64,000 nt of DNA from Lewinella sp. 4G2 (lineage in GTDB: Bacteria > Bacteroidota > Bacteroidia > Chitinophagales > Saprospiraceae): assembly GCF_001625015.1 (NCBI RefSeq), contig NZ_LVWJ02000014.1, positions 806,001 to 870,000 on the forward strand, read 5' to 3'. Each line of letters begins with the position of its first letter. The first letter of the stretch is position 1. The position numbers were made by a program, and so were the translations under genes. Below the pieces are notes generated by a model, which was not told the DNA's origin, did no database searches, and saw nothing but the letters and a program-made list of their open reading frames with translations. Of the stretch, positions 6,695 to 63,500 are shown one piece after another.

Positions 6695-6710
6695 GCGCTG
6701 CCGCAGGTGC
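6695..6710 (+). repeat. Dispersed GC repeat, copy 1
   Basis: Reads GCGCTGCCGCAGGTGC. It lies in the gap between the SLC13 and SDR genes and pairs with the inverted copy 46 bases further on. Confidence 0.8.
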
Positions 6711-6756
6711 GGGGGAGGTCGGCAAGTAAGCGCTTTATCCCCTTTCCCATCACTCA

Positions 6757-6772
6757 GCACCCGCGGCAGCGC
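6757..6772 (-). repeat. Dispersed GC repeat, copy 2
   Basis: Reads GCGCTGCCGCGGGTGC on the minus strand and is preceded there by ccatttg. Together with copy 1 it forms an inverted pair (15 of 16 positions complementary). Confidence 0.8.
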
Positions 6773-6817
6773 CAAATGGTGACGTTCAGAAAATGACGAT
6801 TGCAATGCGGCACGGGA

Positions 6818-7594
6818 TTAAGCCTTCGCCTGCATCTTCTCAATCATAGACAGTTGAACGCTCTTCGGCAGGAGGGGCAAGCCGCCCTTGATCATGAATT
6901 TGAGACCTACTTCGGTAATGACCTCCAGTTTACCGGCCTCCATGCCCTTGTAGCCGGCTTTTGCGGTGTACTCCGGCGTCTTGGCGTCCTTGAACAGATC
7001 GGTATCGGACATATCCGCCGTATCGGCAAACTCGGTGCGGACGGCCCCCGGGTTGAGGGTGGTCAGCATAACGCCCGTGCCCTCCACCTCCTTAGCAACC
7101 GCCCAGGTAAAGGAATTTACGAAAGCCTTGGTCGCGAAGTAGGTGGCCTGCAGCGGCCCCGGCATGTAACCGGCCGTGCTGCTCGTGTTGAGGATCTTGC
7201 CCCGCCCGTGCCGCACCATCTCGTTGAGAAATAGATGGGTGAGTTTGACGACGGCCTTGACGTTCAGGTCGATCATTCCCAGGTCGGCTTTGAGCGCTCG
7301 TTCGTGGAACTTTCCGTGGCCGCCAAACCCTGCGTTGTTGAAGAGGTATTCCACCTCGATCCCGGCTGCCTTGACGGCGTCAAACACCTCCTGACAAGCA
7401 TTTTCCGCGGTAAGATCTTTGGCGATGACCATCGTGGCCACGCCGTACTGCTTGGTGAGCTCGGCGGCCAATTCTTTCAGTTCCGCCTCCCGCCGGGCGA
7501 CGATGATGACGTCCCGTTTGCGGGAAGCGTGTTCGTGCGCCAGGGCGCGGCCAATGCCAGAGGAGGCACCGGTAACTAGTCCTACGTTGACCAT
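6818..7594 (-). CDS. SDR family NAD(P)-dependent oxidoreductase
   Basis: A 258-residue short-chain dehydrogenase. The Rossmann dinucleotide motif TGASSGIGRALA is near residue 7, followed by NNAGFGG near 83, the catalytic Ser in LNTSSTAGY, and the YFATK Tyr/Lys pair; PG after the active site completes the classical SDR pattern. The substrate is unknown; the sequence resembles the YqjQ/DltE-like ketoreductase group. A TTG seven codons upstream would also open the frame, but the ATG at 7594 (MVNVGLVTGASSG) gives the standard N-terminus. The TTG falls in a promoter-like TACCCTTTG, which supports the later start. Confidence 0.88.
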   Translation of the reverse strand: MVNVGLVTGASSGIGRALAHEHASRKRDVIIVARREAELKELAAELTKQYGVATMVIAKDLTAENACQEVFDAVKAAGIEVEYLFNNAGFGGHGKFHERALKADLGMIDLNVKAVVKLTHLFLNEMVRHGRGKILNTSSTAGYMPGPLQATYFATKAFVNSFTWAVAKEVEGTGVMLTTLNPGAVRTEFADTADMSDTDLFKDAKTPEYTAKAGYKGMEAGKLEVITEVGLKFMIKGGLPLLPKSVQLSMIEKMQAKA

Positions 7595-7695
7595 GAGTTT
7601 GTGTTTCTTATTCAAAGGGTATGCCGGTGGGATGTTCGCTCATCGGCCATTCATCCCGCGCAATCGAGATTCGATCCCGCTTCGTCGAGAATGGC

Positions 7696-7725
7696 TTGAC
7701 ACGGCTGATTTCGGGCCTAGTTTTG
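7696..7725 (+). promoter_or_regulatory. Promoter for SPFH gene (TTG-N19-TAGTTTTG)
   Basis: TTG at 7696-7698 and TAGTTTTG at 7718-7725 are separated by 19 bases, matching the Bacteroidota -33/-7 pattern. Transcription would start near 7731, giving a leader of about 35 bases before the ATG at 7767. Confidence 0.65.
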
Positions 7726-7766
7726 GTGGAAACAAGTAATCACAAACACCCTTTAAATACCGCATT

Positions 7767-8948
7767 ATGAAAATTTCCAGTAAGCAAATCCTCATCATCG
7801 TCGGCCTGTTGGTCACCGCCGTCGCCGTCTTCGCTTTCAACCCTTTTTCCGTGAATGACCAGGGTTACCGAACGGTCGTACAGGGCATCACGGGCGCCGA
7901 AACGGTGCGTTTCCAACCGGGTATGTACTGGGCGGGCTTCTTCAGTAAAACCACCAAGTATGCGGACGTAGTAACCGTACAAGTGGAGAGAGCCGAAAAG
8001 CGAAAATCGGACATCAGCTACTTCTCCGAGCCAATCCGCTGCCAGTTTGCGGACGGTACCTACGCCAACCAGGTAGGGTACTCCGTAAAGTGGAAACTCC
8101 CCAACAGCGAAGAGCGCATGCTCGCCATCCACAAGGACTACCGCGAGCAGAGCCGGCTGGCCGCTAGCCTGGCCGACTACTCCAAAGAATGTGCCAATTA
8201 TTCCTTCCAGTTGATGGATAGTGAGCGCCATTACTCGGGAGGCAAGTCGGAACTCGCCGAGGCCTTTAAGTTCCAGCTTCGCAACGGGCAGTACATCATC
8301 GACCAGCAGGAGAAGATCCGTATTGACTCCGCCAGCGGGGAAAAGATCCGCTCCTACGAGAACAACCCCCGGACGAACCCGGACGGAACCTTCATCCTCG
8401 CCAAGAGTGACGTGCAACAGTACGACATCATCCCCAACTTCGTCGCGATCACGCTGGTCGACTACGAAAGTGTCGTCAACGAGAAGCTTAAGGCGAAGGT
8501 CGAGCAGAGCACCCGCGAAGCCATCGCCAAGCAGGAACTCGTCACCGCCCAGCAGGAAGCCCTTACCGCCGAGATGCGCGGCCGCCAGAAGGTAGCCGAA
8601 GTACGCGCCACCGAGGAAGCCGCCAAGATCGAAGCCGAGATCCGCGCCCAGGCTGAAACGGCCGTCAGTAAGGAGCAGGCCCTCCAGGCTAAATTCCAGG
8701 CCGACAAAGCCCTCGCAGAGGGTCGCGCTTCCGCCGAGGTTGCCCGACTGAAAGTACAGGCCGGTCTCTCCCCCCTCGAGAAAGCTCAGATCGAAAAGGA
8801 GACCCGCATCGGGGTAGCCGCTGAGCTCGCCAAAGTGAAGGTCCCCCAGATCGTCATCGGTGGCGGCGACGGCCAGGGCGCGGACGCCATGGATGCTATC
8901 GGCGTCAACATGCTCATGGAAGTCATGGGTAAGTTGGAGAAGAAGTAA
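7767..8948 (+). CDS. SPFH/Band 7 domain membrane protein
   Basis: A 393-residue protein with one N-terminal membrane segment (about residues 7-25) and an SPFH domain up to about residue 240, including NDQGYRTVVQG and YADVVTVQVERAEKR. A long Ala/Glu/Lys/Arg-rich coiled coil (about 240-345) and a short Gly-rich tail follow. SPFH proteins oligomerise into membrane rings or microdomain scaffolds and can regulate membrane proteases. No NfeD-like or FtsH gene is adjacent, so its partner is not apparent. It has its own promoter and a strong downstream terminator, which suggests single-gene transcription. Confidence 0.87.
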   Translation: MKISSKQILIIVGLLVTAVAVFAFNPFSVNDQGYRTVVQGITGAETVRFQPGMYWAGFFSKTTKYADVVTVQVERAEKRKSDISYFSEPIRCQFADGTYANQVGYSVKWKLPNSEERMLAIHKDYREQSRLAASLADYSKECANYSFQLMDSERHYSGGKSELAEAFKFQLRNGQYIIDQQEKIRIDSASGEKIRSYENNPRTNPDGTFILAKSDVQQYDIIPNFVAITLVDYESVVNEKLKAKVEQSTREAIAKQELVTAQQEALTAEMRGRQKVAEVRATEEAAKIEAEIRAQAETAVSKEQALQAKFQADKALAEGRASAEVARLKVQAGLSPLEKAQIEKETRIGVAAELAKVKVPQIVIGGGDGQGADAMDAIGVNMLMEVMGKLEKK

Positions 8949-8988
8949 GGCACTTCTCTGATCTCTACCACGTGGAGCCAAAACATAC

Positions 8989-9018
8989 GAAAGCCCATCC
9001 CGCAAGGGATGGGCTTTC
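8989..9018 (+). terminator. Strong 13-bp terminator hairpin with GCAA loop
   Basis: Arms 8989-9001 (gaaagcccatccc) and 9006-9018 (gggatgggctttc) pair perfectly around a GCAA tetraloop, 40 bases after the SPFH stop codon. The stem itself ends in T-rich sequence. Confidence 0.8.
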
Positions 9019-9023
9019 TGTGT

Positions 9024-9056
9024 CTAGTCCCGGAGGGGCGCCTAATGTAGCGAGGG
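9024..9056 (+). repeat. CTAGTCCCGGAGG repeat, copy A
   Basis: A 33-nt unit beginning CTAGTCCCGGAGGGGCG and ending GTAGCGAGGG. Unlike the other two copies it lacks the following hairpin. Confidence 0.75.
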
Positions 9057-9108
9057 ACCGCCGCGCCAGCATGGGGCAACCTTTCTCAACATTATCGATG
9101 CGGAATTA

Positions 9109-9155
9109 CTAGTCCCGGAGGGGCGTCTACCGTAGCGAGGGGATGCTTCCCCTCG
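9109..9155 (+). repeat. CTAGTCCCGGAGG repeat, copy B, with hairpin
   Basis: The same unit at 9109-9141, running into the hairpin cgagggga-tgct-tcccctcg (9136-9155) and a TTTTCGTTTTT tract, so it resembles a terminator on the plus strand. Confidence 0.75.
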
Positions 9156-9287
9156 TTTTCGTTTTTCCCTCGCATTCGTTATTCCCTACGTTTTCAGTAT
9201 TCCTCGTACTCAATTCGCATTCGTTGTTCTGCCAAATTTTATCGCCACCAAAAATTCAATACCCCATCTCCCAAACATAAAACTCCT

Positions 9288-9926
9288 TTAATACCGGTAC
9301 CTAAACTCCATCTCCTCAGGATTAATATTTAAATACCGAGTAACGTAGGTGCGAATGCCCAGTCCTGATTTTTTAAAAGATTGATTCAATACCTTTTCTG
9401 GTACTTCTAGTGTTGATGGGAAATCAACTTTCCACCGCCCATCCTCAAGTTCATATTGGTAGGTGGATAGGATCGAAACCTTACCTCCAGTAGGGACTAC
9501 CACGTAAAGATTAGCGGTTGTGCTGCTGGTTGACATCGCATCATCTAGTTGCAGGCCCGGTTGAAAAGGACCAGTCCCCAAGAAAGTAAACGCACTGAGC
9601 AAATCGGGCGCTTCAACACCATCCAGCGAAGTAGAATCTATCCTTAGTTCATTCACCAGTTGCTGAAAGAGCATCATGGTCATCAACGGACGTTCGCTAG
9701 AATGGCCTAAATGCAGCATTTCGGTTTCATTGTCCGTCCTGGCGCTTTCGATAATCGTATTCAAATATTGTAAAGAGCCGGTAGTGACCATTGCAGGCAA
9801 TTCGTCAAACGCTTGGTTTTCTGCGGCGGAACAAAGGTCTGTGAAGGATTGCTTTACGTCATTAGTGCTGCTACACGAGTACAACGTAATCATGAGCAGT
9901 AAGGAAAAGAAAGGGGTAAATTTCAT
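9288..9926 (-). CDS. Orphan lipoprotein, unknown function
   Basis: A 212-residue protein with a signal peptide and clear lipobox (LYSCSS, Cys near residue 18), so it should be lipid-anchored in the envelope. No known domain is recognised; the body is acidic and mixed, with a C-terminal half that looks beta-rich (ANLYVVVPTGGKVSILSTYQYELEDGRWKVDF), reminiscent of small secreted domains. The coding sequence is visibly more AT-rich than its neighbours and is flanked by direct copies of the CTAGTCCCGGAGG repeat, which suggests acquisition or exchange as a block. The ATG at 9926 is the only sensible start. Confidence 0.75.
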   Translation of the reverse strand: MKFTPFFSLLLMITLYSCSSTNDVKQSFTDLCSAAENQAFDELPAMVTTGSLQYLNTIIESARTDNETEMLHLGHSSERPLMTMMLFQQLVNELRIDSTSLDGVEAPDLLSAFTFLGTGPFQPGLQLDDAMSTSSTTANLYVVVPTGGKVSILSTYQYELEDGRWKVDFPSTLEVPEKVLNQSFKKSGLGIRTYVTRYLNINPEEMEFRYRY

Positions 9927-9963
9927 TAGGGTTCTAGTTCAGGTGGGCAAGTTGCCCAAAATA

Positions 9964-10003
9964 CAAAAGCTCCCATTCTTCAGAAGAAGAATGGGAGCTT
10001 TTG
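9964..10003 (-). terminator. 17-bp perfect terminator hairpin downstream of aconitase
   Basis: Arms 9964-9980 and 9987-10003 are perfect inverted repeats with a 6-nt loop. On the minus strand the 3' arm ends in TTTTG, followed by TATTTTG, consistent with an intrinsic terminator about 75 bases after the aconitase stop. Confidence 0.8.
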
Positions 10004-10007
10004 ATCT

Positions 10008-10054
10008 CTAGTCCCGGAGGAGCGCCTAATGTAGCGAGGGGATGTTTCCCCTCG
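10008..10054 (+). repeat. CTAGTCCCGGAGG repeat, copy C, with hairpin
   Basis: Unit at 10008-10040, continuing into the hairpin cgagggga-tgtt-tcccctcg (10035-10054) and a T-rich tail, nearly identical to copy B 899 bases away and in the same orientation. Confidence 0.75.
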
Positions 10055-10077
10055 TTTTCGTTTTCCCTCGTTTCCGT

Positions 10078-12408: not shown

Positions 12409-12424
12409 GCGCTGCCGCAGGTGC
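12409..12424 (+). repeat. Dispersed GC repeat, copy 3
   Basis: GCGCTGCCGCAGGTGC in the upstream region of the aconitase gene, followed by cgggcaaatgggataag, which matches the extended right flank of the family. Confidence 0.85.
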
Positions 12425-15258: not shown

Positions 15259-15879
15259 TTATCCAGTAATTAACGCCACCAACTCCGCCGTCATCATGGC
15301 GGTGGCGCCCCAGATCTCTTCACCGTTCACGGCGTAGTAGGGGACGTCCTTAATTAATAGCCCACGCGACGTTTTTCGGTCACCCACTTTCCGGTTAGTT
15401 GGGTCCAGGAGTTGTTGGAAGGGTACCCAGAGTGTCCGCTCCACTTCGCTTGCTTGCAACTTAAACTCCGCACCTGCGGCAGCGCCCCAGTACCCGACGA
15501 AGGGGTCCACGATGAAATTGCTGACGGGAATATAAAGGGGCGTGAGGGCGCCCAGGATCTCAACGTCATTGCGGTCAATACCGATCTCTTCCTCTGCCTC
15601 CCGTAGTGCGGTGTCCTTCGCGTCCGTATCGCCGGGATCGACTGAGCCGCCGGGGAAGGAGATCTGTCCGGCGTGGCGGTCGTTCGGCGGGCTCGTCCGC
15701 TGGATGAACAGCAGGTTGAGCTCGCCCTCGAAGTGGTGGAAAAGGGCCAGGACGGAGGCTACGCGCGCATTCTTGGGTGGCTCGGGAAAATCCCCCCGGC
15801 CGGGAGGGGCAAGACGTGCCTGCGCCTGCCGGCCGGGAAGTGGAGAAGTGCTCAGGGCAAGGCGAATCTGATCTAGCAT
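15259..15879 (-). CDS. NUDIX hydrolase, CoA pyrophosphatase-like
   Basis: A 206-residue protein with a complete Nudix box at about residues 77-100 (GGSVDPGDTDAKDT, then REAEEEIG), preceded by the RTSPPNDRHAGQISFPGG stretch characteristic of the NudL/CoA-diphosphatase branch. It should cleave CoA or acyl-CoA into phosphopantetheine and adenosine bisphosphate in the cytosol. About residues 132-137 (GAAAGA) are encoded by a copy of the dispersed GC repeat. The ATG is preceded, 4 bases upstream, by a 17-bp palindrome that could occlude ribosome entry. Confidence 0.88.
   Translation of the reverse strand: MLDQIRLALSTSPLPGRQAQARLAPPGRGDFPEPPKNARVASVLALFHHFEGELNLLFIQRTSPPNDRHAGQISFPGGSVDPGDTDAKDTALREAEEEIGIDRNDVEILGALTPLYIPVSNFIVDPFVGYWGAAAGAEFKLQASEVERTLWVPFQQLLDPTNRKVGDRKTSRGLLIKDVPYYAVNGEEIWGATAMMTAELVALITG
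15470..15485 (-). repeat. Dispersed GC repeat, copy 4 (in Nudix gene)
   Basis: GCGCTGCCGCAGGTGC on the coding strand of the Nudix gene, translated in the frame that yields Gly-Ala-Ala-Ala-Gly-Ala. Confidence 0.8.
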
Positions 15880-18890: not shown

Positions 18891-19823
18891 TCAAATCAAA
18901 CTACTGTTCAAGTAGCGGTAAAAGAGGAGGAGCGGCGCAATTTCAATGGCGCAAATATACAAAAGTAAATGCACGGGCCGCGTGGCGGCCACGGGACCAA
19001 TGATGAAGAAGCCGCGCGTCAGGTGCAGGAAATAGAGGAGCGCAGCCACCGCTACGCCGGCGTACAGAAACGTCACCCGCAGGTTCTCCGGAGCGTAAGA
19101 AACCCCCAAATTAATGGGCACGAAAACGATGCCCGCCAGAATGGAAAATACCATCAACACAAAGGCGTAGCGGCTCGTTTCTTTCCGTACGGGGAACAGC
19201 CTGCCAACCACCCAAACAACCCACTGCTTGAGATTCACGGCCGCGGCGGCCACCAGGGAATACGTCAGCCAGCTCAACCAAACGTTGCGGCCCAGCCCCA
19301 CGCTATAGTGCGCCGTGAGTAAGTGCAGAAAGAACCCAATCACCAGGAAATAAAATGAATAGCAAATCCAGAGCGCCGTCTCCTCGCCACCCGACCGGCG
19401 CGTATACAGCTGGTTCATCAGGCTTTCGTTGACGGTACCGCGGATGCACTGCCGCAACAAACCACCAAACAATACCCACAGACTAGCCAGGCCGACGAGC
19501 AAAATCAGTTGAATGGCCACGATGGCGCCCTTACCCTTATTGGGGTCCGCCGTCTGAATCACGAGCGGCCCGGAGCGCGGTAAATTTTGCGCTGCCGCAG
19601 GTGCACTGTTGGAGGGGTTTACGGTACCAGGCCCCCGGCGAATGTCGAAGGGCGTCAACGGAGGGCCCTGCGCTACCGTCGTATCCCCTACCCTGGTGGA
19701 TTGAGGCAAACGGGCGGTGATCTCGAAGGGGTTGGACCGGTCCTGTGCGCCCAACTCCCCACCCAGCGAAAGGAGTAGAAAAAGGACGTACAATAAGGAT
19801 CGGTATGTAAGCAAACGGGCCAC
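18891..19823 (-). CDS. DUF4271 membrane protein
   Basis: A 310-residue protein with a signal-like N-terminal helix, an extracytoplasmic low-complexity stretch (about 25-100) and six or so membrane helices from about residue 100 to the end, including the conserved RCIRGTVNESLMNQLYTRR-like loop. The function of DUF4271 is not known; linkage with hemD is conserved, so a tie to heme or tetrapyrrole supply is a reasonable inference only. The start is GTG at 19823. A TACCTTCG box (19830-19837, one mismatch to the -7 consensus) ends 6 bases before it. Part of the N-terminal linker (APAAAQ) is encoded by a dispersed GC repeat. Confidence 0.8.
   Translation of the reverse strand: MARLLTYRSLLYVLFLLLSLGGELGAQDRSNPFEITARLPQSTRVGDTTVAQGPPLTPFDIRRGPGTVNPSNSAPAAAQNLPRSGPLVIQTADPNKGKGAIVAIQLILLVGLASLWVLFGGLLRQCIRGTVNESLMNQLYTRRSGGEETALWICYSFYFLVIGFFLHLLTAHYSVGLGRNVWLSWLTYSLVAAAAVNLKQWVVWVVGRLFPVRKETSRYAFVLMVFSILAGIVFVPINLGVSYAPENLRVTFLYAGVAVAALLYFLHLTRGFFIIGPVAATRPVHLLLYICAIEIAPLLLFYRYLNSSLI
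19589..19604 (+). repeat. Dispersed GC repeat, copy 5 (in DUF4271 gene)
   Basis: GCGCTGCCGCAGGTGC, antisense to the DUF4271 gene, where the complement encodes the Ala-Pro-Ala-Ala-Ala-Gln linker. Confidence 0.8.
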
Positions 19824-28160: not shown

Positions 28161-28176
28161 GCACCCGCGGCAGCGC
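28161..28176 (-). repeat. Dispersed GC repeat, copy 6
   Basis: GCGCTGCCGCGGGTGC in the rimP leader with both flanks well preserved (caatttggg before, gaagaaattgggataa after), making it one of the most complete copies. Confidence 0.85.
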
Positions 28177-28333: not shown

Positions 28334-30529
28334 TTAGCGGGCGCTGTTACCCAGTTTCTCCACGAGGAAATTGGTCATTTTCGTGTAGAGGTGCAGCCGC
28401 GTCGGGCCACCGTAGATGCCGTGGTTGCGGTTGGGGTAGAAGTAGGTATCGAACTGCTTGTTGTTCATGATGAGGGCGTTGGCCATCTCCGCGGTGTGTT
28501 GGAAGTGGACGTTGTCATCCCCCATCCCGTGCACGAGCAGCAGGTCGCCTTCGAGGCGGTCGGCGTAGTGGATCGGGCTGTTCTTGTCGTAGCCATCCTT
28601 GTTCTCCTTGTAGGTACGCATATAGCGCTCGGTGTAGATGGTGTCGTACCACTTCCAATTGGTGACGGGCGCCACGGAAATGGCCGCGGCGAAGGTGTCG
28701 TTACCCTGCAGGATGCAGTGCAGGGCCATGAAGCCACCGTAGGACCAGCCGAAGATGCCAATGCGATCCGCGTCGATGTAGGACTGACCACCGAGGTACT
28801 TCGCGGCGGCGATCTGGTCTTCTGTTTCCTGCTTACCGAGCGTCAGGTAGGTTTGCTTTTTCATCAGCTCACCCCGGGCGCCGGTACCGCGGTTATCGAC
28901 GACGGCCACGACGAAACCCTGCTGGGCCAGCATCTGGAACCAGGCCATGTTGGCGCCGCGCCAGTTATCCAGCACCTGCTGGCTGCCGGGGCCGCCGTAG
29001 ACGTGCATGAGCAGCGGGTGCTCCACGCTTTCGTCCATTCCGGCGGGCTTGATCATGTAGCCATTCAGCGTGGTACCCTCCTCGGTGGTGAAGTCGAAGA
29101 ATTCTACGGGTTGGTAACCGTAGGCCTGAGTTCTGGCCAGCAGGTCCTCGTTGCTGATGATCCGGCGTACGGATTCTCCGCTGCCGTCCATCACCGAGAT
29201 TACGGCGGGCTGGTTGATGGTCTGGTGGTTCAGCACGAAGTAATCGTAGGTGCTGGAGAACTGGGCGGAGCTCGTACCTGGCTCAGCGGCCAACGGACGG
29301 GGCAGGTCGCGGCCGCGGAGGCTCTTTACGTACACCTCCCGGCCCAACGCGTTCTTTTTGGCCGCCTGGAAGTAGACCTGGCCGTCGTGGAAGCCGTAGA
29401 AGTCCGTCACGTCCCACTTACCCATGGTGATCTGCTGTTGCTCCTTGGCGTTGTTCAGACCGTGGAGGTAGATGTGGTTGTAACCATCGATCTCGCTCGT
29501 CCAGATGAACTGCTTGCCGTCCGCGAGGAAGGTCAGGTTATCATGCACGTCGATGTAGTACTTACTGGCTTCCTTCAGGATGGTCTTTTCTTCGCCGGTC
29601 TTCAGGTCGAAAAGTTGAAGTTGAGTTTGGTTCTGGTAGCGGTTCATGACTTGAGCGACGACCTGATCGCCGCGGGTCGTCCACGTCACGCGGGGCAGGT
29701 AGTGCCAGCGGTCGAGTTTGTCCTTATTTACCGTGATCAGGTCTTTGGTCGCGCCGGTGCCGACATTATAAGCGTGGAGGGAAACGGTGCTGTTCTCCTC
29801 CCCTACTTTGGGGTATTTGAAGGTGTTGTACTCGGGGTACATGTCGTTGTGGAAGTCCGTGTAGGTGAACTCGGGTACCTGCTTCTCGTCGAATTTCAGG
29901 TAAGCGAGGTGGCTGCCGTCGGGGCTCCAGTGGATGGCGGAACTGAAGGCAAATTCTTCTTCGTACACCCAGTCGGCCGCGCCGTTGATGATGGCGTTCA
30001 CGGCACCGTCGGTGGTGACCTGCGTGAGCTCACCGCCGTCCAGGTTTTTGATCCAGATGTTATTGTCCACCACAAAAGCGACGCGTTTTCCGGTGGGGTC
30101 CAGCGAAGCCAGTCGGTGCTTCTTTTCGGGGTAGACGGCCGTCAGTTTTTTGCTGTCCACGTCATAGACGTAGAAGAAACTCTGGCTGCTGCGGCGGAAG
30201 AGTTGTTCCGATTCACTACTGATGACGAGTTGCTTTTCGTCGTCGCTCAGGTAATAGTTATCGATGCGGCCGCTGAACCCGGCCTGGCCTTCAAGGTCGG
30301 CGCCATCCACGATCACGCCGGTCTCTTTTCCACTGGTGATGTCGTAGGTCCGGATCTTGTTTTTCGAGAGGCGGGTGTAAGTCTTACCGTCGGCCAGAAA
30401 GTTGAACCCACTGACGCGGTCGGCGCTGAAGATGTAGTTCTGCCAAATGTCCTCCAGCGAGATGTTCTTGGTCTGGGCGCTGGCGCCGGTGCAAAGGAAG
30501 AGGGCGAGTAAAAGGGATAGGTAGCGCAT
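28334..30529 (-). CDS. S9 family peptidase, dipeptidyl peptidase IV-like
   Basis: A 731-residue exported serine peptidase expected to remove dipeptides after proline. The signal peptide ends at LFLCTGASAQ. An N-terminal DPP-IV beta-propeller (about 40-480) precedes the alpha/beta-hydrolase domain with the nucleophile in GWSYGGFMALH, the Asp in MGDDNVHFQHT and the His in NRNHGIYGG. A longer frame runs to 30682, but the signal peptide fixes the ATG at 30529. The signal-peptide cleavage region (minus strand of 30477-30492) resembles a diverged dispersed GC repeat. Confidence 0.93.
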   Translation of the reverse strand: MRYLSLLLALFLCTGASAQTKNISLEDIWQNYIFSADRVSGFNFLADGKTYTRLSKNKIRTYDITSGKETGVIVDGADLEGQAGFSGRIDNYYLSDDEKQLVISSESEQLFRRSSQSFFYVYDVDSKKLTAVYPEKKHRLASLDPTGKRVAFVVDNNIWIKNLDGGELTQVTTDGAVNAIINGAADWVYEEEFAFSSAIHWSPDGSHLAYLKFDEKQVPEFTYTDFHNDMYPEYNTFKYPKVGEENSTVSLHAYNVGTGATKDLITVNKDKLDRWHYLPRVTWTTRGDQVVAQVMNRYQNQTQLQLFDLKTGEEKTILKEASKYYIDVHDNLTFLADGKQFIWTSEIDGYNHIYLHGLNNAKEQQQITMGKWDVTDFYGFHDGQVYFQAAKKNALGREVYVKSLRGRDLPRPLAAEPGTSSAQFSSTYDYFVLNHQTINQPAVISVMDGSGESVRRIISNEDLLARTQAYGYQPVEFFDFTTEEGTTLNGYMIKPAGMDESVEHPLLMHVYGGPGSQQVLDNWRGANMAWFQMLAQQGFVVAVVDNRGTGARGELMKKQTYLTLGKQETEDQIAAAKYLGGQSYIDADRIGIFGWSYGGFMALHCILQGNDTFAAAISVAPVTNWKWYDTIYTERYMRTYKENKDGYDKNSPIHYADRLEGDLLLVHGMGDDNVHFQHTAEMANALIMNNKQFDTYFYPNRNHGIYGGPTRLHLYTKMTNFLVEKLGNSAR

Positions 30530-32338: not shown

Positions 32339-33295
32339 ATGCTCCCCTTCCAAAACCGCCTCAAGAAAATGGCCCGCCACCACGGCAAATGGGCCCGCCG
32401 CCAGGAACTCGACGCCTACCGGATCTACGATGCGGACCTGGACGAGTACCCCATCACCGTGGACCGCTACGGCGAACAACTCTACGTCTCCATCTACCAC
32501 CGCCGGGGGGAAGAATGGACGGACGCAGACTTCCAGGACCGCAAGCTCGCCTACCGCGATGCCATCACCGAAACCCTGGAAGTGGGCCGGGACCAGGTTT
32601 TCTTCAAACTCCGCAAGCGGCAATCCGGGACGGATCAGTACGAAAAACTATCCGTCGCCCAACGCGAATTCACGGTGGCGGAAAATGGCCTCGGCTTCAT
32701 CGTCAACCTCACCGATTACCTCGATACCGGCCTTTTCCTGGACCACCGCCAGACGCGGATGATGATCGCCAAGGACGTTCAGGCCACGGAGAACGCCGTC
32801 GTGCTCAACCTCTTTGCCGGGACCTGTTCCTTCACCATCTACGCCGCGGCCGCGGGTGCCAAGCGCGTGGATTCAGTGGAACTCTCCAAAACCTACCTGG
32901 ACTGGGGGGAAAGGAACCTCGCCCTCAACGAATTGGAAAAGGGGAACCACCGCTTCCTCCAGGAGGACGCCATGCAGTGGCTGAAGAAGGACCGCAACCC
33001 CAATTACGATATCGTGATCCTGGACCCACCCACCTTCTCCAACTCCAAACGAATGCGGGACAGCCTAGACGTACAACGCGACCACGTAGGCCTCATCAAC
33101 CGCTCGCTATCCCTCCTCAAGCCCGGTGGCCGGCTTTACTTCATGACGAGTTTCCGCAAGTTTAAACTAGCCGAGGACTACCTGAAGGGGGCCGCATCCG
33201 TTAAAGAGATTACCGGACAAACGGTACCGCCGGATTTCCGAAAACGAAAGCCACACCGGTGTTGGTTGTTGGTGCGAACTGACGAGGAAGCGTAA
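32339..33295 (+). CDS. RlmK/RlmI-like class I SAM-dependent rRNA methyltransferase
   Basis: A 318-residue protein that resembles the stand-alone C-terminal half of RlmKL, which makes m7G in 23S rRNA. Matching segments are DQYEKLSVAQREFTVAENG, NLTDYLDTGLFLDHRQTR, SAM-binding LNLFAGTCSFTIYAAAAGA near residue 160, the acidic VDSVELS strand, and the catalytic-pocket DIVILDPPTFSNSKR. No THUMP domain is present. The exact rRNA position is inferred, not shown. An ATG 10 codons downstream (32369) is an alternative start. Confidence 0.85.
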   Translation: MLPFQNRLKKMARHHGKWARRQELDAYRIYDADLDEYPITVDRYGEQLYVSIYHRRGEEWTDADFQDRKLAYRDAITETLEVGRDQVFFKLRKRQSGTDQYEKLSVAQREFTVAENGLGFIVNLTDYLDTGLFLDHRQTRMMIAKDVQATENAVVLNLFAGTCSFTIYAAAAGAKRVDSVELSKTYLDWGERNLALNELEKGNHRFLQEDAMQWLKKDRNPNYDIVILDPPTFSNSKRMRDSLDVQRDHVGLINRSLSLLKPGGRLYFMTSFRKFKLAEDYLKGAASVKEITGQTVPPDFRKRKPHRCWLLVRTDEEA

Positions 33296-35250: not shown

Positions 35251-35266
35251 GCGCTCACGCAGGTGC
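35251..35266 (+). repeat. Dispersed GC repeat, copy 7
   Basis: GCGCTCACGCAGGTGC, one base off consensus, between two convergent genes, with atttgg before it and cgggttatggagg after. Confidence 0.75.
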
Positions 35267-36586: not shown

Positions 36587-36602
36587 GCACCTGCGTCAGC
36601 GC
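36587..36602 (-). repeat. Dispersed GC repeat, copy 8 (in protease signal peptide)
   Basis: Minus strand reads GCGCTGACGCAGGTGC. On the plus strand it encodes the end of the signal peptide, with Thr-Cys-Val-Ser-Ala leading into the cleavage site before Gln23. Confidence 0.8.
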
Positions 36603-47531: not shown

Positions 47532-48487
47532 AAGCAACCTTTACCTTTCCGGCCTTCCTTCTTGCGTTACTTGCCCTCTTACCCGGCACCCGCGTCAGCG
47601 CCCAACAGGATGCGCAGTATACCCAGTTCATCTTTAATAAGTTGGGATATAACCCGGGCTTTGCCGGCGCCGTGGAATCTGGTGAGATATCCGTGATTGC
47701 GCGCCGGCAGTGGTTCGGGCTGGCCGGGGCACCGAGCAGCCAGATCGCTACTTTTAATACGGCGTTTGCGGACCAACGCTCCGGCGTCGGCCTGCGCCTT
47801 AGCCAGGTATCCGTAGGCTTGGAACAACAGTTGAACGCCGACGTGAGCTACGCTTACGGCTTCCCCATCGGGCCGGGAGTACGGATGGGTCTGGGGATTT
47901 CCGCTTCCGCCCGCTACTTCCGGATCGACTATCAAAACGCCCGCCCCGTGCAGGGTGGTGGAGTGGATACGGCCATTCCCGGAGCCGCATCCTCTAAAGT
48001 CGTACCAAATTTCGGCGCCGGTGTTTACGTGAATGGGCGGAAATTTTACGTGGGATTGAGTACGCCCCGCCTCCTACAAAACAACCTGGATCTGGGGACT
48101 GACGAGACCATCATCGCCCGCGAGGCCCGCCATTACTACTTCATGGGTGGATTGAAGATTCCGCTCGGCGAAAGCGTGAAAATGCAGCCGCAAGCCCTGG
48201 TCAAGTACCTTCCCAACGCGCCCTTCGATGCGGATCTGAACTTGCTATTCTACTTCGGTGAGAATGTCTTTGCCGGCGGTGGCTACCGGGTGGGTGGTGA
48301 CGGGAGCGGGGAATCCGCCAACGTGCTTTTCGGTGCCATCCTGGCGCAACACATCACCTTTTCCTTTGCCTACGACCTGGGCCTAAGCCAACTGAATACC
48401 GACCAGGGGGGAAGCCTGGAAGGAATGGTGATGTACAGTTTTGGCCGCCGCGGCAGTGGCTCGGTGATCGATCCGCGGGATCTCTAA
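47528..48487 (+). CDS. PorP/SprF family T9SS outer-membrane protein
   Basis: A 319-residue outer-membrane beta-barrel protein with signal peptide ending at TRVSAQ. The family hallmark QDAQYTQFIFNKLGYNPGFAG opens the mature protein, followed by VIARRQWFGLAGAPSSQ, repeated amphipathic strands, and the C-terminal SFAYDLGLSQLN...YSFGRR end. In known systems PorP/SprF proteins attach type B cargo such as SprB at the surface. The ATGA overlap with the preceding adhesin shows the two are co-translated and probably act as a dedicated pair. Confidence 0.92.
   Translation: MKATFTFPAFLLALLALLPGTRVSAQQDAQYTQFIFNKLGYNPGFAGAVESGEISVIARRQWFGLAGAPSSQIATFNTAFADQRSGVGLRLSQVSVGLEQQLNADVSYAYGFPIGPGVRMGLGISASARYFRIDYQNARPVQGGGVDTAIPGAASSKVVPNFGAGVYVNGRKFYVGLSTPRLLQNNLDLGTDETIIAREARHYYFMGGLKIPLGESVKMQPQALVKYLPNAPFDADLNLLFYFGENVFAGGGYRVGGDGSGESANVLFGAILAQHITFSFAYDLGLSQLNTDQGGSLEGMVMYSFGRRGSGSVIDPRDL
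47586..47601 (-). repeat. Dispersed GC repeat, copy 9 (in PorP/SprF signal peptide)
   Basis: Minus strand reads GCGCTGACGCGGGTGC; on the plus strand it encodes Gly-Thr-Arg-Val-Ser-Ala at the signal-peptidase site, in the same frame as copy 8. Confidence 0.8.
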
Positions 48488-50403: not shown

Positions 50404-50419
50404 GCACCCGCGTCAGCGC
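50404..50419 (-). repeat. Dispersed GC repeat, copy 10
   Basis: GCGCTGACGCGGGTGC on the minus strand, in the mnmG leader. It pairs with copy 11 to give a near-perfect hairpin. Confidence 0.85.
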
Positions 50420-50432: not shown

Positions 50433-50448
50433 GCGCTGACGCAGGTGC
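50433..50448 (+). repeat. Dispersed GC repeat, copy 11
   Basis: GCGCTGACGCAGGTGC, inverted relative to copy 10 and 13 bases from it; the AAA/TTT flanks also pair. Confidence 0.85.
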
Positions 50449-53606: not shown

Positions 53607-54584
53607 CTACCACGGTCGGTGCTCTTTGTTGAGCACAAATTCCCTGTCGTCCAGCGTCAGCAGGAAAGCGATCAGGTCAGACTGGTCGTTGGCGGAGAGT
53701 GGTATCGGATCTTCGCGGGTAGCGTAGTGCCGCAGCACCTGCCGCAACTTACGGAAGCGGCCGTCGTGCATATACGGATGCGTAAAACTGAGGTTCCGCA
53801 GGGAAGGCACCTTGAACCGCAAACTGTCCTCCGGCAAGTTCGTGATCATCATCCGCCCAAAATCGTTGAGCGTGGTATCCACCGCAAGGCCATTACGCTC
53901 GAAAGCATAATTGGTGAACAAAGGCTCGGTGTGGCAAGCATTGCAGTTGGCCTTAAAAAGTTGGTACCCCTTCAGTTCCTGATTCGTAAAGGAGTCTCGA
54001 CCAGCCTTGATCCGATCGTAGCGGGCACCGGCCGAGACCAAGGTAAGCTGAAACTGGGCCAGCGCCTTTAACAGATTTGGCCCCGTAACCCCCTCCTCCC
54101 CGAAAGCGCGCTGGAAGTCCGCCGCGTAACTCGAATCCCCCCGCAGCCGGGTGATCACTTCGTTGATGCTACTCCCCATTTCATCTTCGTGATGAATGGG
54201 CGCGAGCGGCTGCAACTCGATACTGTGGTGGGCCCCGTCGTGGTGAAAACTGGTGGTCCAGGCCAAGTTGAACAGCGCGGGGGCGTTGCGCAAACCAATG
54301 CGGTCGTCAATCCCGTGGCTCAGGTCATGGTCCGTATGCGCAAAGGCAGCGAAGGGAGAGTGGCAGGTGGCGCAGGCGATCGTCCCATCCGCGGAAAGGA
54401 TCTCATCGTAGAAGAGTCGTTTTCCCAACTCTACCCGGCCCTGACGCAAAGGGTTGGCGGCGAAGTCGTAGGCGGGTTCCGGAAAGTGAGCGGGACGCCA
54501 ATAATCACGCAAGCCAACCGGTCCGGTGGCGGTCGCTAATAGCACCAGCGCCAGCATCACGAAGAGGTAGCTTAATTGCTTCAC
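53607..54584 (-). CDS. Diheme cytochrome c peroxidase / MauG family protein
   Basis: A 325-residue exported protein with an N-terminal membrane or signal helix and two c-type heme motifs, CATCH at residues 71-75 and CNACH at 214-218. The layout (LGKRLFYDEILS, FSHGID-type region, NVPSLRNL-like VPSLRNLSFTHPYMHDGRF) is that of the CcpA/MauG family, which reduce peroxide or oxidise protein residues through high-valent heme. It overlaps the upstream MbnP-like gene by 4 bases, the same pairing as MbnH with MbnP, in which the diheme enzyme modifies a Trp of its partner. Action in the periplasm is expected. Confidence 0.92.
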   Translation of the reverse strand: MKQLSYLFVMLALVLLATATGPVGLRDYWRPAHFPEPAYDFAANPLRQGRVELGKRLFYDEILSADGTIACATCHSPFAAFAHTDHDLSHGIDDRIGLRNAPALFNLAWTTSFHHDGAHHSIELQPLAPIHHEDEMGSSINEVITRLRGDSSYAADFQRAFGEEGVTGPNLLKALAQFQLTLVSAGARYDRIKAGRDSFTNQELKGYQLFKANCNACHTEPLFTNYAFERNGLAVDTTLNDFGRMMITNLPEDSLRFKVPSLRNLSFTHPYMHDGRFRKLRQVLRHYATREDPIPLSANDQSDLIAFLLTLDDREFVLNKEHRPW

Positions 54585-55273
54585 CGGGATGCACGTTTTA
54601 TTGAGAAAGCACGCTGCAGCGAATCCGCAAATTCGAGGGCTTCAGCCGTGGGGCTCATAATGCGGTAATCGGTACTAAGATCACGGTTATGGATGATCTT
54701 ATCCAAGTCCAGCCGGACCGTTAGGAAAGACGAGCCGTCCGTACGGAGTACCACCCGCCGCGCGGTATTGAAGGGTGCCTGAAATCCACCAATATGAAAC
54801 TGGAAGCGGTGGCCCCGTGCCGGGCATTCCGCTGCGGTGCCTTCTAACTTAAAGTTGATATAGCCGCTCCGCCAGGTCCAATACATCCCCTTTGTCGGGT
54901 CGAGGTCGCCACCAAAAACCCCGGCTGCAGTCTTAGTGCTGTCGACGCCGATGGTGAATTGGAGGTCATCCCATTCTAGCTCCGGTGGGGTAGCTATTTC
55001 TAGGAGTTGGCTTTCGGGTATAGCGGCGTCGACCAAATGGTAGCTGTCCGGTTCGGTGTAAACCACCGTGCCACCATTGAGTAGTTGGACCCTCGTCACG
55101 TAATAGCGCAGGGTGTGGATCCCCAACTTTGTACCTGCGGCAGCGCCCTGATCTGCTGTAGTCAGATTAAGTGCCTCACCCTCCAGTACGGCCTCAAAAC
55201 TAATGACCGTTGATTGGCCGAAAGCGAACGGTCCGGCGAGTAGACACAAAACAAGAAGGACTTTAGTGGCCAT
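54581..55273 (-). CDS. MbnP-family protein
   Basis: A 230-residue exported protein with a signal peptide ending near PFAFGQ. It contains the family core LGIHTLRYYVTRVQLLNGG, then a DLDPTKGMYWTWRSGYINFKLEG-type segment (here residues near 125-145) with the Trp pair, and the GHRFQFHIGG strand with His residues. MbnP proteins bind copper and are partners of MauG-like diheme enzymes. Sequence near residue 45 (GAAAGT) is encoded by a dispersed GC repeat. It overlaps the Spy-like gene by 11 bases upstream and the peroxidase by 4 bases downstream, a tight operon. Confidence 0.88.
   Translation of the reverse strand: MATKVLLVLCLLAGPFAFGQSTVISFEAVLEGEALNLTTADQGAAAGTKLGIHTLRYYVTRVQLLNGGTVVYTEPDSYHLVDAAIPESQLLEIATPPELEWDDLQFTIGVDSTKTAAGVFGGDLDPTKGMYWTWRSGYINFKLEGTAAECPARGHRFQFHIGGFQAPFNTARRVVLRTDGSSFLTVRLDLDKIIHNRDLSTDYRIMSPTAEALEFADSLQRAFSIKRASR
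55131..55146 (-). repeat. Dispersed GC repeat, copy 12 (in MbnP gene)
   Basis: GCGCTGCCGCAGGTAC on the minus strand, one base off consensus, encoding Gly-Ala-Ala-Ala-Gly-Thr. Confidence 0.7.
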
Positions 55274-56649: not shown

Positions 56650-56665
56650 GCGCTGCCGCAGGTGC
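56650..56665 (+). repeat. Dispersed GC repeat, copy 13
   Basis: GCGCTGCCGCAGGTGC in the divergent gap between the sigma factor and AraC genes, followed by tagcaaattgggaaggg, a good extended right flank. Confidence 0.85.
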
Positions 56666-58626: not shown

Positions 58627-58638
58627 GTTTTGGTTTTT

Positions 58639-59020: not shown

Positions 59021-59078
59021 AAATTACCGAAGGCAAATCCCAGGTAACTACTTCAACTTATCCGCTTAAATACAAAAC

Positions 59079-59103
59079 GCCCCCTCCCAAACAGGAAGGG
59101 GGC
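59079..59103 (-). terminator. recA terminator
   Basis: On the minus strand a GC-rich stem (plus 59097-59103 with 59079-59085, extended by two more pairs past a one-base bulge) is followed by GTTTTGTATTT. It lies about 54 bases after the recA stop. Confidence 0.75.
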
Positions 59104-59156
59104 ATTAGTCATGTATTCAGCATCTTCTGGAGCGTTGAGTTCTACTCCAGGTTACT

Positions 59157-60239
59157 TTACACCGCAGCGTCAGCAGCTTTGCCTTTGCCGTTCTTGGCGG
59201 CTTCCAGTTCGGCTTCTTCCTCTTCGGTGATGCCCATGAGGCGGTTCTTGATCTTGGTTTCGATCTCATCGGCTACCTCGGGGTTGTCCTGCATGAAGAT
59301 TTTGGCGGCTTCGCGGCCCTGGGCAATCTTAGCGTCGCCATAGCCATACCAGGCGCCGGACTTGCTCACGATATCCTGGTCCACACCAAGGTCGACGATC
59401 TCGCCTACTTTGGAAATGCCTTCGCCGTACATGATGTCGAACTCAGCGATCCGGAAGGGGGGCGCCAGTTTGTTCTTGGCCACCTTCACTTTCACGTGGT
59501 TACCAATGACGGCACCCTGCTTGTCCTTGATCGCAGCACCGGAGCGGCGGATGTCGATCCGCATGGAAGCGTAGAATTTGAGGGCGTTACCACCGGTGGT
59601 CGTTTCGGGGTTACCGAACATGACACCGATCTTTTCGCGCAGCTGGTTGATGAAGATGCAACAGCATCCCGTCTTACCGATCGTACCGGTCAGTTTACGC
59701 ATGGCCTGGCTCATCAGACGCGCCTGGAGGCCCATCTTGGAGTCACCCATTTCACCTTCGATCTCCGCGCGGGGTACGAGGGCGGCTACGGAGTCAACGA
59801 CAAGGATGTCGACGGCGCCGGAGCGGATAAGGTTTTCAGCAATCTCGAGCGCTTGCTCACCGTTGTCCGGCTGGGAGATCAGGAGGTTGTCGGTATCTAC
59901 TCCCAGGTTCTGGGCGTAGAAACGGTCGAAGGCGTGCTCCGCATCAACGATGGCGGCGATGCCACCGCGCTTCTGGCATTCGGCGATGGCATGGATCGCC
60001 AATGTCGTCTTACCCGAAGATTCAGGGCCGTAGATCTCGATGATCCGGCCCTTGGGGAAACCACCGATGCCAAGCGCGACATCGAGGCCGAGGGATCCCG
60101 TTGGGATAGCCTCAATGTTTGCCGCCTCGCTTTCGCCAAGGCGCATGATGGTACCTTTTCCGTAAGCCTTGTCGAGACGATCAATCGTCATCTGAAGTGC
60201 TTTAAGCTTAGCGGCGGTTTCTTTATTCTTATCTGCCAT
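59157..60239 (-). CDS. recA: Recombinase RecA
   Basis: A 360-residue ATP-dependent recombinase that pairs single-stranded DNA with homologous duplex and activates the SOS response. Visible are the Walker A motif [10 protein letters not shown] near residue 70, the DAEHAFD segment, [15 protein letters not shown], Walker [25 protein letters not shown], and the DNA-binding loop 2 region [29 protein letters not shown]. An acidic C-terminal tail ([13 protein letters not shown]) is typical. The ATG at 60239 is preceded by a clear Bacteroidota promoter. It is a single-gene unit between two large adhesin-type and repeat regions. Confidence 0.97.
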
Positions 60240-60275
60240 AATACTGCTGTTAAAAGAACTTGTTTTGTTAGGCTA

Positions 60276-60306
60276 CAAATATAAACACAAATCAAACAAT
60301 GCACAA
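60276..60306 (-). promoter_or_regulatory. recA promoter (TTG-N20-TATATTTG)
   Basis: On the minus strand a TTG (plus 60304-60306) is followed 20 bases later by TATATTTG (plus 60276-60283), matching the Bacteroidota consensus. It predicts a leader of about 30 bases. No LexA-like site is evident. Confidence 0.7.
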
Positions 60307-60460
60307 CAGTATTCGAAAATAATGGCAAATAAATTCCCTATTTAGGTGTAAAAACCTAAAGTGTAACTTTTAAGATTACGAAAAATGTTTGAAAAGTCAG
60401 CTTTTGGTGCTAGAATTGGTCCTCAACAAGGACGATCCGTCCCGCGTCACCAATTTTTTG

Positions 60461-60476
60461 GCACCCGCGGCAGCGC
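60461..60476 (-). repeat. Dispersed GC repeat, copy 14
   Basis: GCGCTGCCGCGGGTGC on the minus strand in the recA-adhesin gap, followed there by caaaaaattggtgacg, which keeps the AATTGG right flank. Confidence 0.85.
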
Positions 60477-60513
60477 CCTCTGAAGGTCAGCAGCAGAAAT
60501 GAGACTCTATAGA

Positions 60514-63500
60514 CTACTTGAGAACGGTAACGTCGCCCCGGTAGAGGAGAGATTCTCCGTCCAGGAACTCCACCCGAACCATGTACACGAATACACCGGG
60601 GTTGACGGGCTTATTGTTCGCCGCGTTCCCATTCCACAATCTGATGCCGTCGAGGCAATTGGGGGGCACCTCAGTTTCCTGGTACACCAGACCACCCCAG
60701 CGGTCGTAAATCTGCACGTCGGAGATGCGCGTGACGCCCTGGCAGGCGAAGACCCGGAAGTCATCGTTGCGGCCATCACCGTTGGGGCTGAATACGTTGG
60801 GAATGTAGACGTTGCGGTTGGCATCGACGTTGACGAAGATGTCCGCAAAGGCCAAACAGCCATTGCTATTGGTTACCTGCAGTGCGTAAGCCTGGTCGCT
60901 GAATGGAGAGACGATCGGGTTACGAATGGAATCCGCGCTCAGGAAGGTCGCTGGCGTCCATAGGTAACTATATACATCGCCGACCGGGCTGACGATCGGG
61001 TTGAAGCGCGTCAGGGTATCCCCCAACTCAATGGTGATCTCTTCGGGGAGGCTGATCACGATCTCCGGCGGTTGGTTGACGGTAAGGATTTGCTGCGCCG
61101 AACAGCCCGCCGCATCAAATACGGTAACGATGACTTCACCGGCAAAGGCATCCGCCGGCTGGTCGATACCTACCCGGAAGCCATTGTTGTTGACGGAGAA
61201 AGTGTAATCCTCCGGCCCGGTCGCTGTTCCACCCGCCACGTTATCTACAAATACGGAGGTAGGTTGGCCAAAACAGAGGGGTTCCTCAATCGGTAGCACG
61301 TTAAACGTGATCAGGTCCGGCTCGCTGATGTCGTAGCGCACGCTATCCTGACAGCCATTCACGTCGGTGATCGTGACGCCGTAGCTCCCGGGGGGTAAGC
61401 CGGTAGCAGTACTGGAGGAAGGGTCCGCAACGTTACCCGACCAGGTATACGGCGCATCCCCAAGGTCATTGTTGTTGACGCTATTCACGAATACCGTGAT
61501 CATCCCGTCGGATTCTCCCGAGCAAGTCACGGAAGCCGACATGGTCGAATCGATGGCCAGGTCCAGCACGTCCGGTTCAATGATGGTAAAGACGAACGGA
61601 TCGGGGCTACAGCCATTTTCGTCGGTGATCACCACTTCGTAGGTGCCTGCGGGTAGATTTTCCAGGCTGTTGTCGGTATCCGGGAAGCCCGTCCAGCTAA
61701 ACGTGTAGTCGCCCGTACCGCCGGTCACCTCGGTCAGTACGATGGATCCATCCGCGGCGCCGTTACAGCTCACCTGAGTAAAGACGGGCACGATCGCGAA
61801 GGGTTCCGGGCTGGTGATCTCATCGGTAAATACCTCCGTACAGGTACCGTCCGTAACGGTCACGGATATTGGTCCGCGCGCCAGGCCGGTCACGGTGCTG
61901 GAGTTACCCATCTCGGAAAAACCATTGGACCAGTTGAACGTGAACATCCCCTGCGTACCGTCGTCGAAAGCGGCGGAGAAGGATGCCTGACCGTCCGCGA
62001 TGTTATCGTCGGGGCAGGAGACGGGTGTTGTCGTAAAGGTGCCGGTAATGGCCGCGGGGTCTTCCAGTACGAATGAGTCCATAAAGGCTGGCTCACAATT
62101 ATTGGCGTCCGTAATGGTTACCGAGTAAGTCCCTGCGGAGAGACCACCGAGGACATTGTTCTGAGTAATTACGCCAGGGTTGGTGCTGTACTCGTAATTG
62201 TAGGTCCCATCCATGTTAGGTGTACCGCCACTCGCAGTGAAGGTCAGGCTACCGTCCGCATCTCCGGGGCAGGTGGGGTTGACGGGTGTGACGCTGAGGA
62301 GTTCCACTGGGGTCGGGCTGGCCACGATTCCAATCTGCGCGTTTTCACAACCATTGGAGGTGGTCACCACGATGCCGTACAGCCCAATGGCCAGATCACT
62401 AATCGTAGCGTTGCTACCAATCGGATTATCGGGGTCGACGAAGGTAGAATCCGGATTCAACCGGAACCATTCAATACCCGTAACCGTCTCGCCGGGGGGC
62501 GGGGTGATCGTCGCGGTAAGCATGCCGTCCGTATCGCCGGGGCAAGAAATAAAGCTGAGCGGAATCGGATCAATTTGCGCTGCCGCTGGTGCGGAGATTC
62601 GGAAGGAATCGAGGATCTCACACATATTGGCGTCCGTAACGAAAAGGACGTAGTTGGAGTCGGGTTCGAGACCGTCAATGAAGGGCCCGGGGGTAATGGT
62701 GTCAAAAGCCATGTCGAGGCTATCATTCGTCCAACGGTAGGTATAAGGCATCGTTCCACCGGAGACGGCCGCCGTTGCCTCCCCACCCATTTGGGGGATA
62801 CAAGTCGCGTCGCGAATGACCAGGTCTTCGTCGAAGACCAACTCTTCGGGAGAGGTAATTTCAAAAGTATCCGTAAAGGAACAGCCGGCCGGGTCCTCAT
62901 CCCGCAGCGTAATCGAATACATGCCTGGGCCCAGATCGTCAAAAGCGGTAGGTACGGTAATATCCGTCACCTCTACGTCGGCACTGGAAATGCCAGAGGA
63001 TAGCTCGATCAGGGTAAAGAAGAAGTTACCCACCTGCGGCGCACCGGATGTGCTACCGACTACCTCGATGATACCGTCATTGGCGCCAAAACACTGAACG
63101 TTGGTCAGCGTCTCGGTGATCAGCAGGCTCTTGTTAGCGTCCACCGTAAAGTTGGAGGTGGTCATACAGCCGGACTGGTCCGTAACCGTAACGGCGTAGC
63201 TACCGGGCAGAAGTCCGGTGCGGTTGGACATGGTCGTATTAAGGTCGGTACCCAAGCCTCCTGGCCAGGCAAAGTCGAAGGAACCGTCGCCACCGTCGGC
63301 GGTGATGGTGATAGAGCCATCCGCCGCCCCGTCACAGGTAGCGGCACTGACGGCATCGGCGGGGTTATCCGGCCGGACCGTAATGGGCAGCGGTTGGCCC
63401 AGGAACTGGCTGACGTCCGTCATACACCCCTCGGGCGAGGTCACCGTCACCTCGTAAGAGCCGGACTCCAGCCCGGTCAGGACGTTGCTCGTTTCCGTGC

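Follow-up and report, generated by a model that had tools for sequence, protein, structure and literature searches.

To our knowledge, DNA uptake sequences are known only from the Neisseriaceae and Pasteurellaceae, and searches of the openly licensed literature listed none for Bacteroidota or Lewinella. The subject here is a dispersed repeat in a 64,000-nucleotide stretch of Lewinella sp. 4G2 (contig NZ_LVWJ02000014.1, positions 806,001 to 870,000; hereafter the window) that is a candidate for such a sequence. Its core, GCGCTGMCGCRGGTGC, recurs throughout the genome, is respelled in related species and obeys a spacing rule that applies to each DNA strand separately. Neither the element nor a same-strand spacing rule was found described among the openly licensed papers listed on Bacteroidetes competence or uptake-sequence spacing.

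The DNA uptake sequence (DUS) of Neisseria is, in the portions of the source available, abundant and non-palindromic, lies both in genes and in gaps and occurs in dialects that are a few bases apart (PMC3630211). The available portions of a second study link DUS spacing to recombination tract length and report that many recent DUS arose by recombination rather than by point mutation (PMC2397512). The element resembles this published picture in its abundance, its non-palindromic form, its presence in genes and gaps and its dialects. However, its length is about three times that of the 12-base DUS, it is depleted between convergent genes, it has a per-strand spacing rule and no type IV filament ATPase is recognised in its host genus. 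The uptake signal sequence (USS) of the Pasteurellaceae lies preferentially as its reverse complement where genes begin and, more broadly, within genes, according to the available part of that account (PMC2346458). Copies of the element at gene starts are also mostly antisense, whereas its orientation within genes as a whole is balanced, and the unrecognised pilus ATPase again sets its host genus apart. No per-strand spacing rule is reported in the available portions of PMC1939737, PMC3630211, PMC7811141, PMC2397512 or PMC2346458.

Abundance and strand-specific spacing

The repeat is real and genome-wide. The exact core occurs 811 times in the host genome (G000; 5,213,657 bases in 21 contigs), 406 times forward and 405 times in reverse, while the reversed core, used as a control, gives 0 matches. 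An order-5 Markov model predicts 0.01 exact copies in 760 kb of this genome (the window, positions 1-396000 of contig C11 and positions 1-300000 of contig C14), where 129 are observed. A position-weight scan of the same 760 kb returns 187 copies, including a doubtful match at window position 32844 (18.4 bits) that is left out of Table 1. The position-weight scans and the gene caller are home-made, and the caller missed at least one gene. The sequence read was chosen for convenience and comprises 760 of the 5214 kb of G000, 513 kb of G002, 280 kb of G010, 200 kb of G012 and 40-80 kb of the others. Conservation over 167 copies extends from about -5 to +33: the core is preceded by TTTGG and followed by G at +20, AA at +22/23 and GGG at +25/27. 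The information content of the motif is about 34 bits over 39 positions, and the element as a whole is not palindromic.

A preliminary description of the window had proposed fifteen copies (seven plus, eight minus) where chance predicts none, and shared flanks that may give an element of 35-40 nucleotides. These proposals hold: in the window, 18 core matches with at most two mismatches compare with 0.33 on average in shuffles. One further copy, the sixteenth, had been missed at 30477 and was recovered by a flank-aware motif scan. The number of one-mismatch copies had been put at four and is three, as the copies found by the core search from 6695 to 62592 comprise 12 without mismatch and 3 with one. 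Six copies had been placed in reading frames; five of the fifteen do lie in genes (15470, 36587, 47586, 55131 and 62577), and the status of 19589 is uncertain because the start codon of the gene is uncertain.

Copies on the same strand exclude one another over distances below about 2 kb, and copies on opposite strands are placed independently. In G000, the strand alternates in 140 of 184 neighbouring pairs and does not in 44. A single same-strand interval is shorter than 2 kb (26.6 in shuffles), and no same-strand pair lies within 1.5 kb (33 expected). The ratio of observed to expected same-strand pairs is 0.09 at 1.5-2 kb, 0.32 at 2-3 kb, 0.55 at 3-4 kb, 0.82 at 4-5 kb and about 1 beyond; in G002 and in four pooled relatives it has risen to about 1 by 3-4 kb. 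Pairs on opposite strands are not consistently depleted, and in G000 and G002 those below 500 bp are slightly more numerous than expected. Long gaps are rarer than in shuffles as well (7 same-strand gaps over 16 kb in G000 against 20.0), the same-strand spacing having a mean of 8.2 kb and a coefficient of variation (CV) of 0.47. Ten genomes carry one copy per strand per 5.3-11.3 kb. The longest copy-free stretch in the sample spans 21 kb of G000 (C14:91609-112880) and may be a recent acquisition.

Label shuffles, 5000 per genome, covered G000, G001, G002, G003, G005, G009 and G010. None reaches the alternation of G000 or G002 or their lack of same-strand intervals below 2 kb. The alternation is reached by 19 shuffles in G005, 3 in G009, 13 in G001 and 280 in G003, and the lack of short same-strand intervals by 103, 37, 12 and 324, respectively; alternation in G003, taken alone, is weak. 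G010, which has a different spelling, alternates at 61 of 80 neighbours (shuffle maximum 59) and has 2 same-strand intervals below 2 kb against 17.3 in shuffles, neither value being reached by any shuffle. The corresponding numbers for G002 are 17 and 37.7; its scan returns 174 copies and 17 in reversed sequence, and some of the G002 copies are probably false. No replication-strand polarity is present in the stretches read, as strands alternate locally. Exclusion limited to the same strand is a measure of spacing, not of uptake, and it speaks against a function for which orientation is irrelevant. For such a pattern to arise, plus and minus copies must have similar roles over a few kilobases and yet be unable to stand in for each other.

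Dialects, orthologous sites and neighbouring genes

High copy numbers are restricted to one genus, which is probably Neolewinella (Bacteroidota, Saprospiria). The exact core is found in 7 of 298 genomes of the family, five of them members of the genus, and among 199 family genomes the bipartite form GGCG-N4-CGCRGGTGC has 399-1425 copies in four genus members and 0-6 in the other 195. A scan of named genomes matched at least 119 stretches; 3 of the 80 loci listed belong to Neolewinella (two species), and the others among those listed are single matches in a wide range of bacteria. At least 120 viral-contig stretches also matched, with one match each among the 80 listed. When two free positions and one mismatch are allowed, 16 of 21 genus genomes hold 148-1259 matches (reversed control 6-58), and G003, G010, G012, G014 and G020 hold 6-50 (control 3-11).

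The spellings, derived from stretches of ten relatives, differ between species. The form in G000 is GGGCGCTGcCGCaGGTGC, that in G005 and G009 is GGGCGCGGcCGCAGGTGC, that in G002 is GGCGCGG.CGCgGGTGC and that in G003 is GGGCGGGG.CGCgGGTGC. The two species poorest in matches have motifs of their own: that of G012 is GGGCGGCGGAGCGCAGGTA, with 17 seed matches over 200 kb of which two seem off target, and that of G010 is agCatTGCTACTTTG.tagccaaaa, present 84 times in 280 kb and 3 times in reversed sequence. G004, G006, G011 and G013 have a weaker consensus. The exact core had suggested that four species (G003, G010, G012 and G020) are without the element; once other spellings were found, this proved wrong for three of them (G003, G010 and G012) and is probably wrong for G020 too. 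The G010 motif probably represents the same mark in a spelling that has drifted far, because its reverse complement, aligned without gaps, matches six of the other dialects, each at one common offset, with 3-23 of 1000 column shuffles scoring as high. Scores in the other orientation are lower in every case and are reached by 10-441 of 1000 shuffles; the six comparisons are not independent, and G003 is fairly high in the other orientation too (10 of 1000). A midpoint-rooted tree based on a single gene from 20 of the 21 species (G010 left out) has a mostly high-count clade, with G013 as an exception, and a second clade whose members have fewer matches or are spelled otherwise.

A variant with one extra spacer base is present in G013, G020 and part of G001, where the exact pattern has 156, 60 and 181 copies, respectively. 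In G001, this longer-spacer variant (e.g. GGCGCTCACCGCAGGTGC) also forms inverted pairs 67-81 bp apart (C23:76585/76664, C23:114291/114370, C34:207798/207865 and C38:141319/141400) that may be a hairpin element in its own right, derived from the mark. In G005, four of 26 copies lead directly into a C run, a short loop and a G run (about tcccccccggccccccgaagggggg), which is a strong hairpin fused to the element (L216:18145, L217:15265 and L218:9993 on the plus strand; L216:4898 on the minus strand, whose positions are counted from the other end). An 11-mer unrelated to the mark, GTCGGCCGACG, which contains a palindrome, occurs 17 times over both strands in 80 kb of G003 (L242-L245), against 0.38 expected.

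Judged from orthologous sites, many copies are old and respelled by substitution. The tally is a by-eye reading of alignments to one relative, G002, and the sample is small: 14 of 102 G000 copies in the window and C11 fall within alignments. Nine of the 14 are kept at the same place with a gapless core, four of these having at core position 5 the letter typical of G002, and the other five are degenerate (two) or absent (three, two of them in badly gapped stretches). In the reverse direction, 16 of 132 G002 copies fall within alignments to G000; 11 are kept, and three of the five absences are same-length substitutions. No clean element-sized insertion is present in these 30 site alignments. One in-gene site, C11:121569, has four spellings in G000, G002, G005 and G009. 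The 32 kb that align between G000/G002 and G010 hold one G010 site only, which is without counterpart. Conservation of nine of 14 sites with an indel-free core argues against mobile insertion and for a watermark like that of uptake sequences.

Predicted genes cover 84% of the 760 kb and contain 103 of the 187 copies, so that copies are tolerated within genes but are denser between them. Because 84 copies lie outside predicted genes, codon or signal-peptide preference alone was rejected as an explanation. Eighty of the 84 were placed between two genes: 49 in tandem gaps (47.6 expected by length), 25 in divergent gaps (16.7 expected) and 6 in convergent gaps (15.7 expected). This depletion between convergent genes led us to reject a transcription terminator. 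The close inverted pairs that had been likened to terminators do exist, but because of the same depletion they are not mainly terminators. An RNA-level signal was also rejected, since transcription direction is not preferred in genes (49 sense, 54 antisense) or in tandem gaps (26 co-directional, 23 opposed). In-gene copies leave one of the sense frames entirely unused and occupy one of the antisense frames 5 times. The first 35 codons hold 21 copies, 17 antisense and 4 sense. Many of these gene-start copies read by eye as signal peptides such as LLALFLCTCVSAQ, and leader peptides or Ala/Gly stretches are frequent locations of in-gene copies. Antisense copies together with their purine-rich 3' flank encode this apparent signal peptide at window positions 36587 and 47586 and at many places in C11, so that the mark reads as built into the leaders of secreted proteins. 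Short tandem runs (around TCTAAAGTCTAACGTCTAAAG and GAGTTGCAAGTTTC) adjoin some intergenic or gene-end copies (G000 C11:389560, 392619 and 215539). The copies in the window are given in Table 1.

Table 1. Copies of the element in the window, with match to the core, motif score and surroundings.
Feature	Coordinates	Strand	Match to core	Score (bits)	Surroundings
Copy	6695..6710	+	exact	36.6	intergenic; paired with inverted copy at 6757
Copy	6757..6772	-	exact	40.8	intergenic
Copy	12409..12424	+	exact		intergenic; respelled copy at same place in G002
Copy	15470..15485	-	exact		within NUDIX gene, sense strand, encodes GAAAGA
Copy	19589..19604	+	exact		upstream of DUF4271 gene or inside its extended start
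Copy	28161..28176	-	exact	45.5 (top score of the window)	intergenic, upstream of rimP-nusA; degenerate counterpart in G002 (ortholog alignment)
Sixteenth copy	30477..30492	+	2 mismatches, strong flanks	32.5	antisense, start of peptidase-like gene
Copy	35251..35266	+	1 mismatch	37.9	intergenic, convergent
Copy	36587..36602	-	exact		antisense in leader (LLLCTCVSAQ) of DUF4953 (Met-zincin) gene
Copy	47586..47601	-	exact		antisense in PorP/SprF gene leader
Copy	50404..50419	-	exact		intergenic; forms divergent pair with 50433
Copy	50433..50448	+	exact		intergenic
Copy	55131..55146	-	1 mismatch		sense, within MbnP-like gene 54581-55273, which the gene caller missed; tallied by it as intergenic
Copy	56650..56665	+	exact	41.7	intergenic, divergent
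Copy	60461..60476	-	exact		intergenic; 222 bp upstream of recA (recA by Pfam)
Weak copy	62577..62592	+	1 mismatch	24.9	antisense in SprB-repeat gene 60514-63981

Candidate function and rival explanations

We put at about one half the probability that the element is a self-DNA recognition sequence for natural transformation, 35-40 bp or so in length, spelled in species dialects and read by strand. A surface or periplasmic receptor, rather than a type IV minor pilin, would bind the mark directionally or on a single strand, and the DNA would then enter via ComEC. A second mark on the same strand of a fragment that is already marked would bring no gain, so that copies would spread by molecular drive and yet keep their spacing, maintained by biased uptake in a pilus-less transformation pathway. 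This explanation is preferred because the dialects, the confinement to a genus and the density match those of uptake sequences. The uptake-type reading offered in the preliminary description is borne out in part: the hundreds of copies, the equal strands, the tolerance within genes, the dialects and the substitution at orthologous sites fit it, whereas the strand spacing and the unrecognised pilus ATPase set the element apart from known uptake sequences. Under orientation-blind uptake, opposite-strand neighbours would be redundant too, and they are not; single-strand recognition, or directional processing from the mark, would yield the observed pattern. In a toy birth-death model that counts a copy as useful when its fragment has no other copy on the same strand, and not otherwise, redundancy at a 1 kb scale gives an alternation of 0.74 and a CV of 0.49 (observed, 0.76 and 0.47), and strand-blind versions give 0.50-0.51 and 0.87-0.94.

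ComEC is present once per genome in all 21 genus genomes. Type IV pilus ATPase (PF00437, the type II/IV secretion ATPase family) is not recognised in the genus, where the search yields only partial matches in 20 of 21 genomes (24-84 of 370 positions, 19-25 bits, in open frames of 301-1074 residues; 11 genomes just over the 24.9-bit cut-off). Applied to 14 control genomes, this search detects the family in all of them and exceeds the cut-off in 13. The genus therefore reads as one without a type IV filament system, although a very divergent one could escape the PF00437 search. In Riemerella anatipestifer, of the same phylum, transformation needs ComEC, DprA, ComF and RecA together with four proteins unlike known machinery, according to the part of the report available (PMC8459023). 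This suggests a different outer-membrane route in the phylum.

Several points weigh against a strand-read transformation mark. The spacing effect is weak or absent in G004, G006, G011 and G013 (40-80 kb each). The toy model alternates at only 0.66-0.56 when its scale is 2-8 kb, and its parameters were chosen rather than fitted, making it a demonstration rather than a fit. ComEC is weak evidence, as it is also present in 10 of 14 control genomes, and the type IV pilus machinery that carries the known Neisseria receptor is not recognised. In Haemophilus influenzae, uptake is unaffected by the orientation or position of the sequence, as stated in the available part of that study (PMC1939737), whereas orientation governs the spacing of the element described here. 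Strand-specific spacing is thus not predicted by the known mechanism.

The main rival is a Chi-like directional signal, which we consider unlikely. A repair nuclease-helicase of the genus would read the element on one strand while degrading a DNA end and would switch to recombination there; each strand would need its own regularly spaced copies, since a break is processed from both sides. Such a signal would explain directly why plus and minus copies cannot replace each other, Chi sites are read directionally, and the density of the element is of the order of that of Escherichia coli Chi (67 sites on both strands in 250 kb). However, known Chi sites are 5-8 bases long, and a motif of this length and information content, respelled between species of one genus, is unlike them. 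The E. coli sites also show the opposite spacing, with 22 same-strand pairs below 1 kb against 9.0 expected, which is clustering rather than exclusion. A strand-specific signal of the chromosome, such as a site where a DNA motor is loaded or oriented, a DNA packaging start site or the site of a nucleoid protein, would likewise be directional, genome-wide and spaced on a kilobase scale. It is quite improbable given that the stretches read lack regional polarity and alternate locally, unlike signals that point along a replication arm, and that the copies bear no relation to transcription direction. The mark is moreover respelled between species, which is unusual for housekeeping DNA motors.

The same-strand exclusion may instead reflect selection against direct repeats, between which recombination would delete DNA, and the element would then perhaps be an ordinary orientation-blind uptake sequence. 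In its favour, exclusion is limited to the direct orientation, and inverted pairs are tolerated. Slippage between repeats of 16-35 bp has a range far below 4 kb, whereas depletion in G000 extends to 4 kb and is gone by 5 kb. Avoidance of direct repeats also leaves the scarcity of long same-strand gaps unexplained, and strand-blind uptake would make opposite-strand copies redundant, although these are not depleted; we therefore regard this explanation as doubtful. Much the least probable is a short mobile palindromic element of the Rickettsia type, a miniature inverted-repeat transposable element or a repetitive extragenic palindromic (REP) element with its associated tyrosine transposase (RAYT), the other reading offered in the preliminary description. 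The element shares with REP/RAYT systems its dispersed GC-rich repeats and some close inverted pairs, and Y1-type (HUH) transposase matches are present in 20 of 21 genus genomes, with six matches in G000. It differs in not being palindromic overall, in not being confined to gaps (more than half of the copies lie inside predicted genes) and in changing by substitution, several losses being of unchanged length and none of the aligned sites showing a clean insertion. Five Y1 genes fetched with their flanks are not regularly bordered by copies, and strand-specific exclusion is not expected of a mobile element.

If the strand-read transformation mark is correct, its reach may be wider than one genome. 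Tentatively, and with somewhat less confidence than in the mark itself, we suggest that self-DNA recognition by one-strand reading, without a type IV pilus, is genus-wide in this group of Bacteroidota, each strand bearing an evolved ruler of marks of its own and one outlier species having made the mark hardly recognisable while keeping the spacing rule of each strand. This would be an independent, pilus-less case across a genus of some twenty species and would mean that genome watermarks have more than one origin. Spacing by strand would provide a purely computational handle on how a mark is read, whether on a single strand or directionally, and the motif could serve as bait for finding the DNA receptor of Bacteroidota competence.

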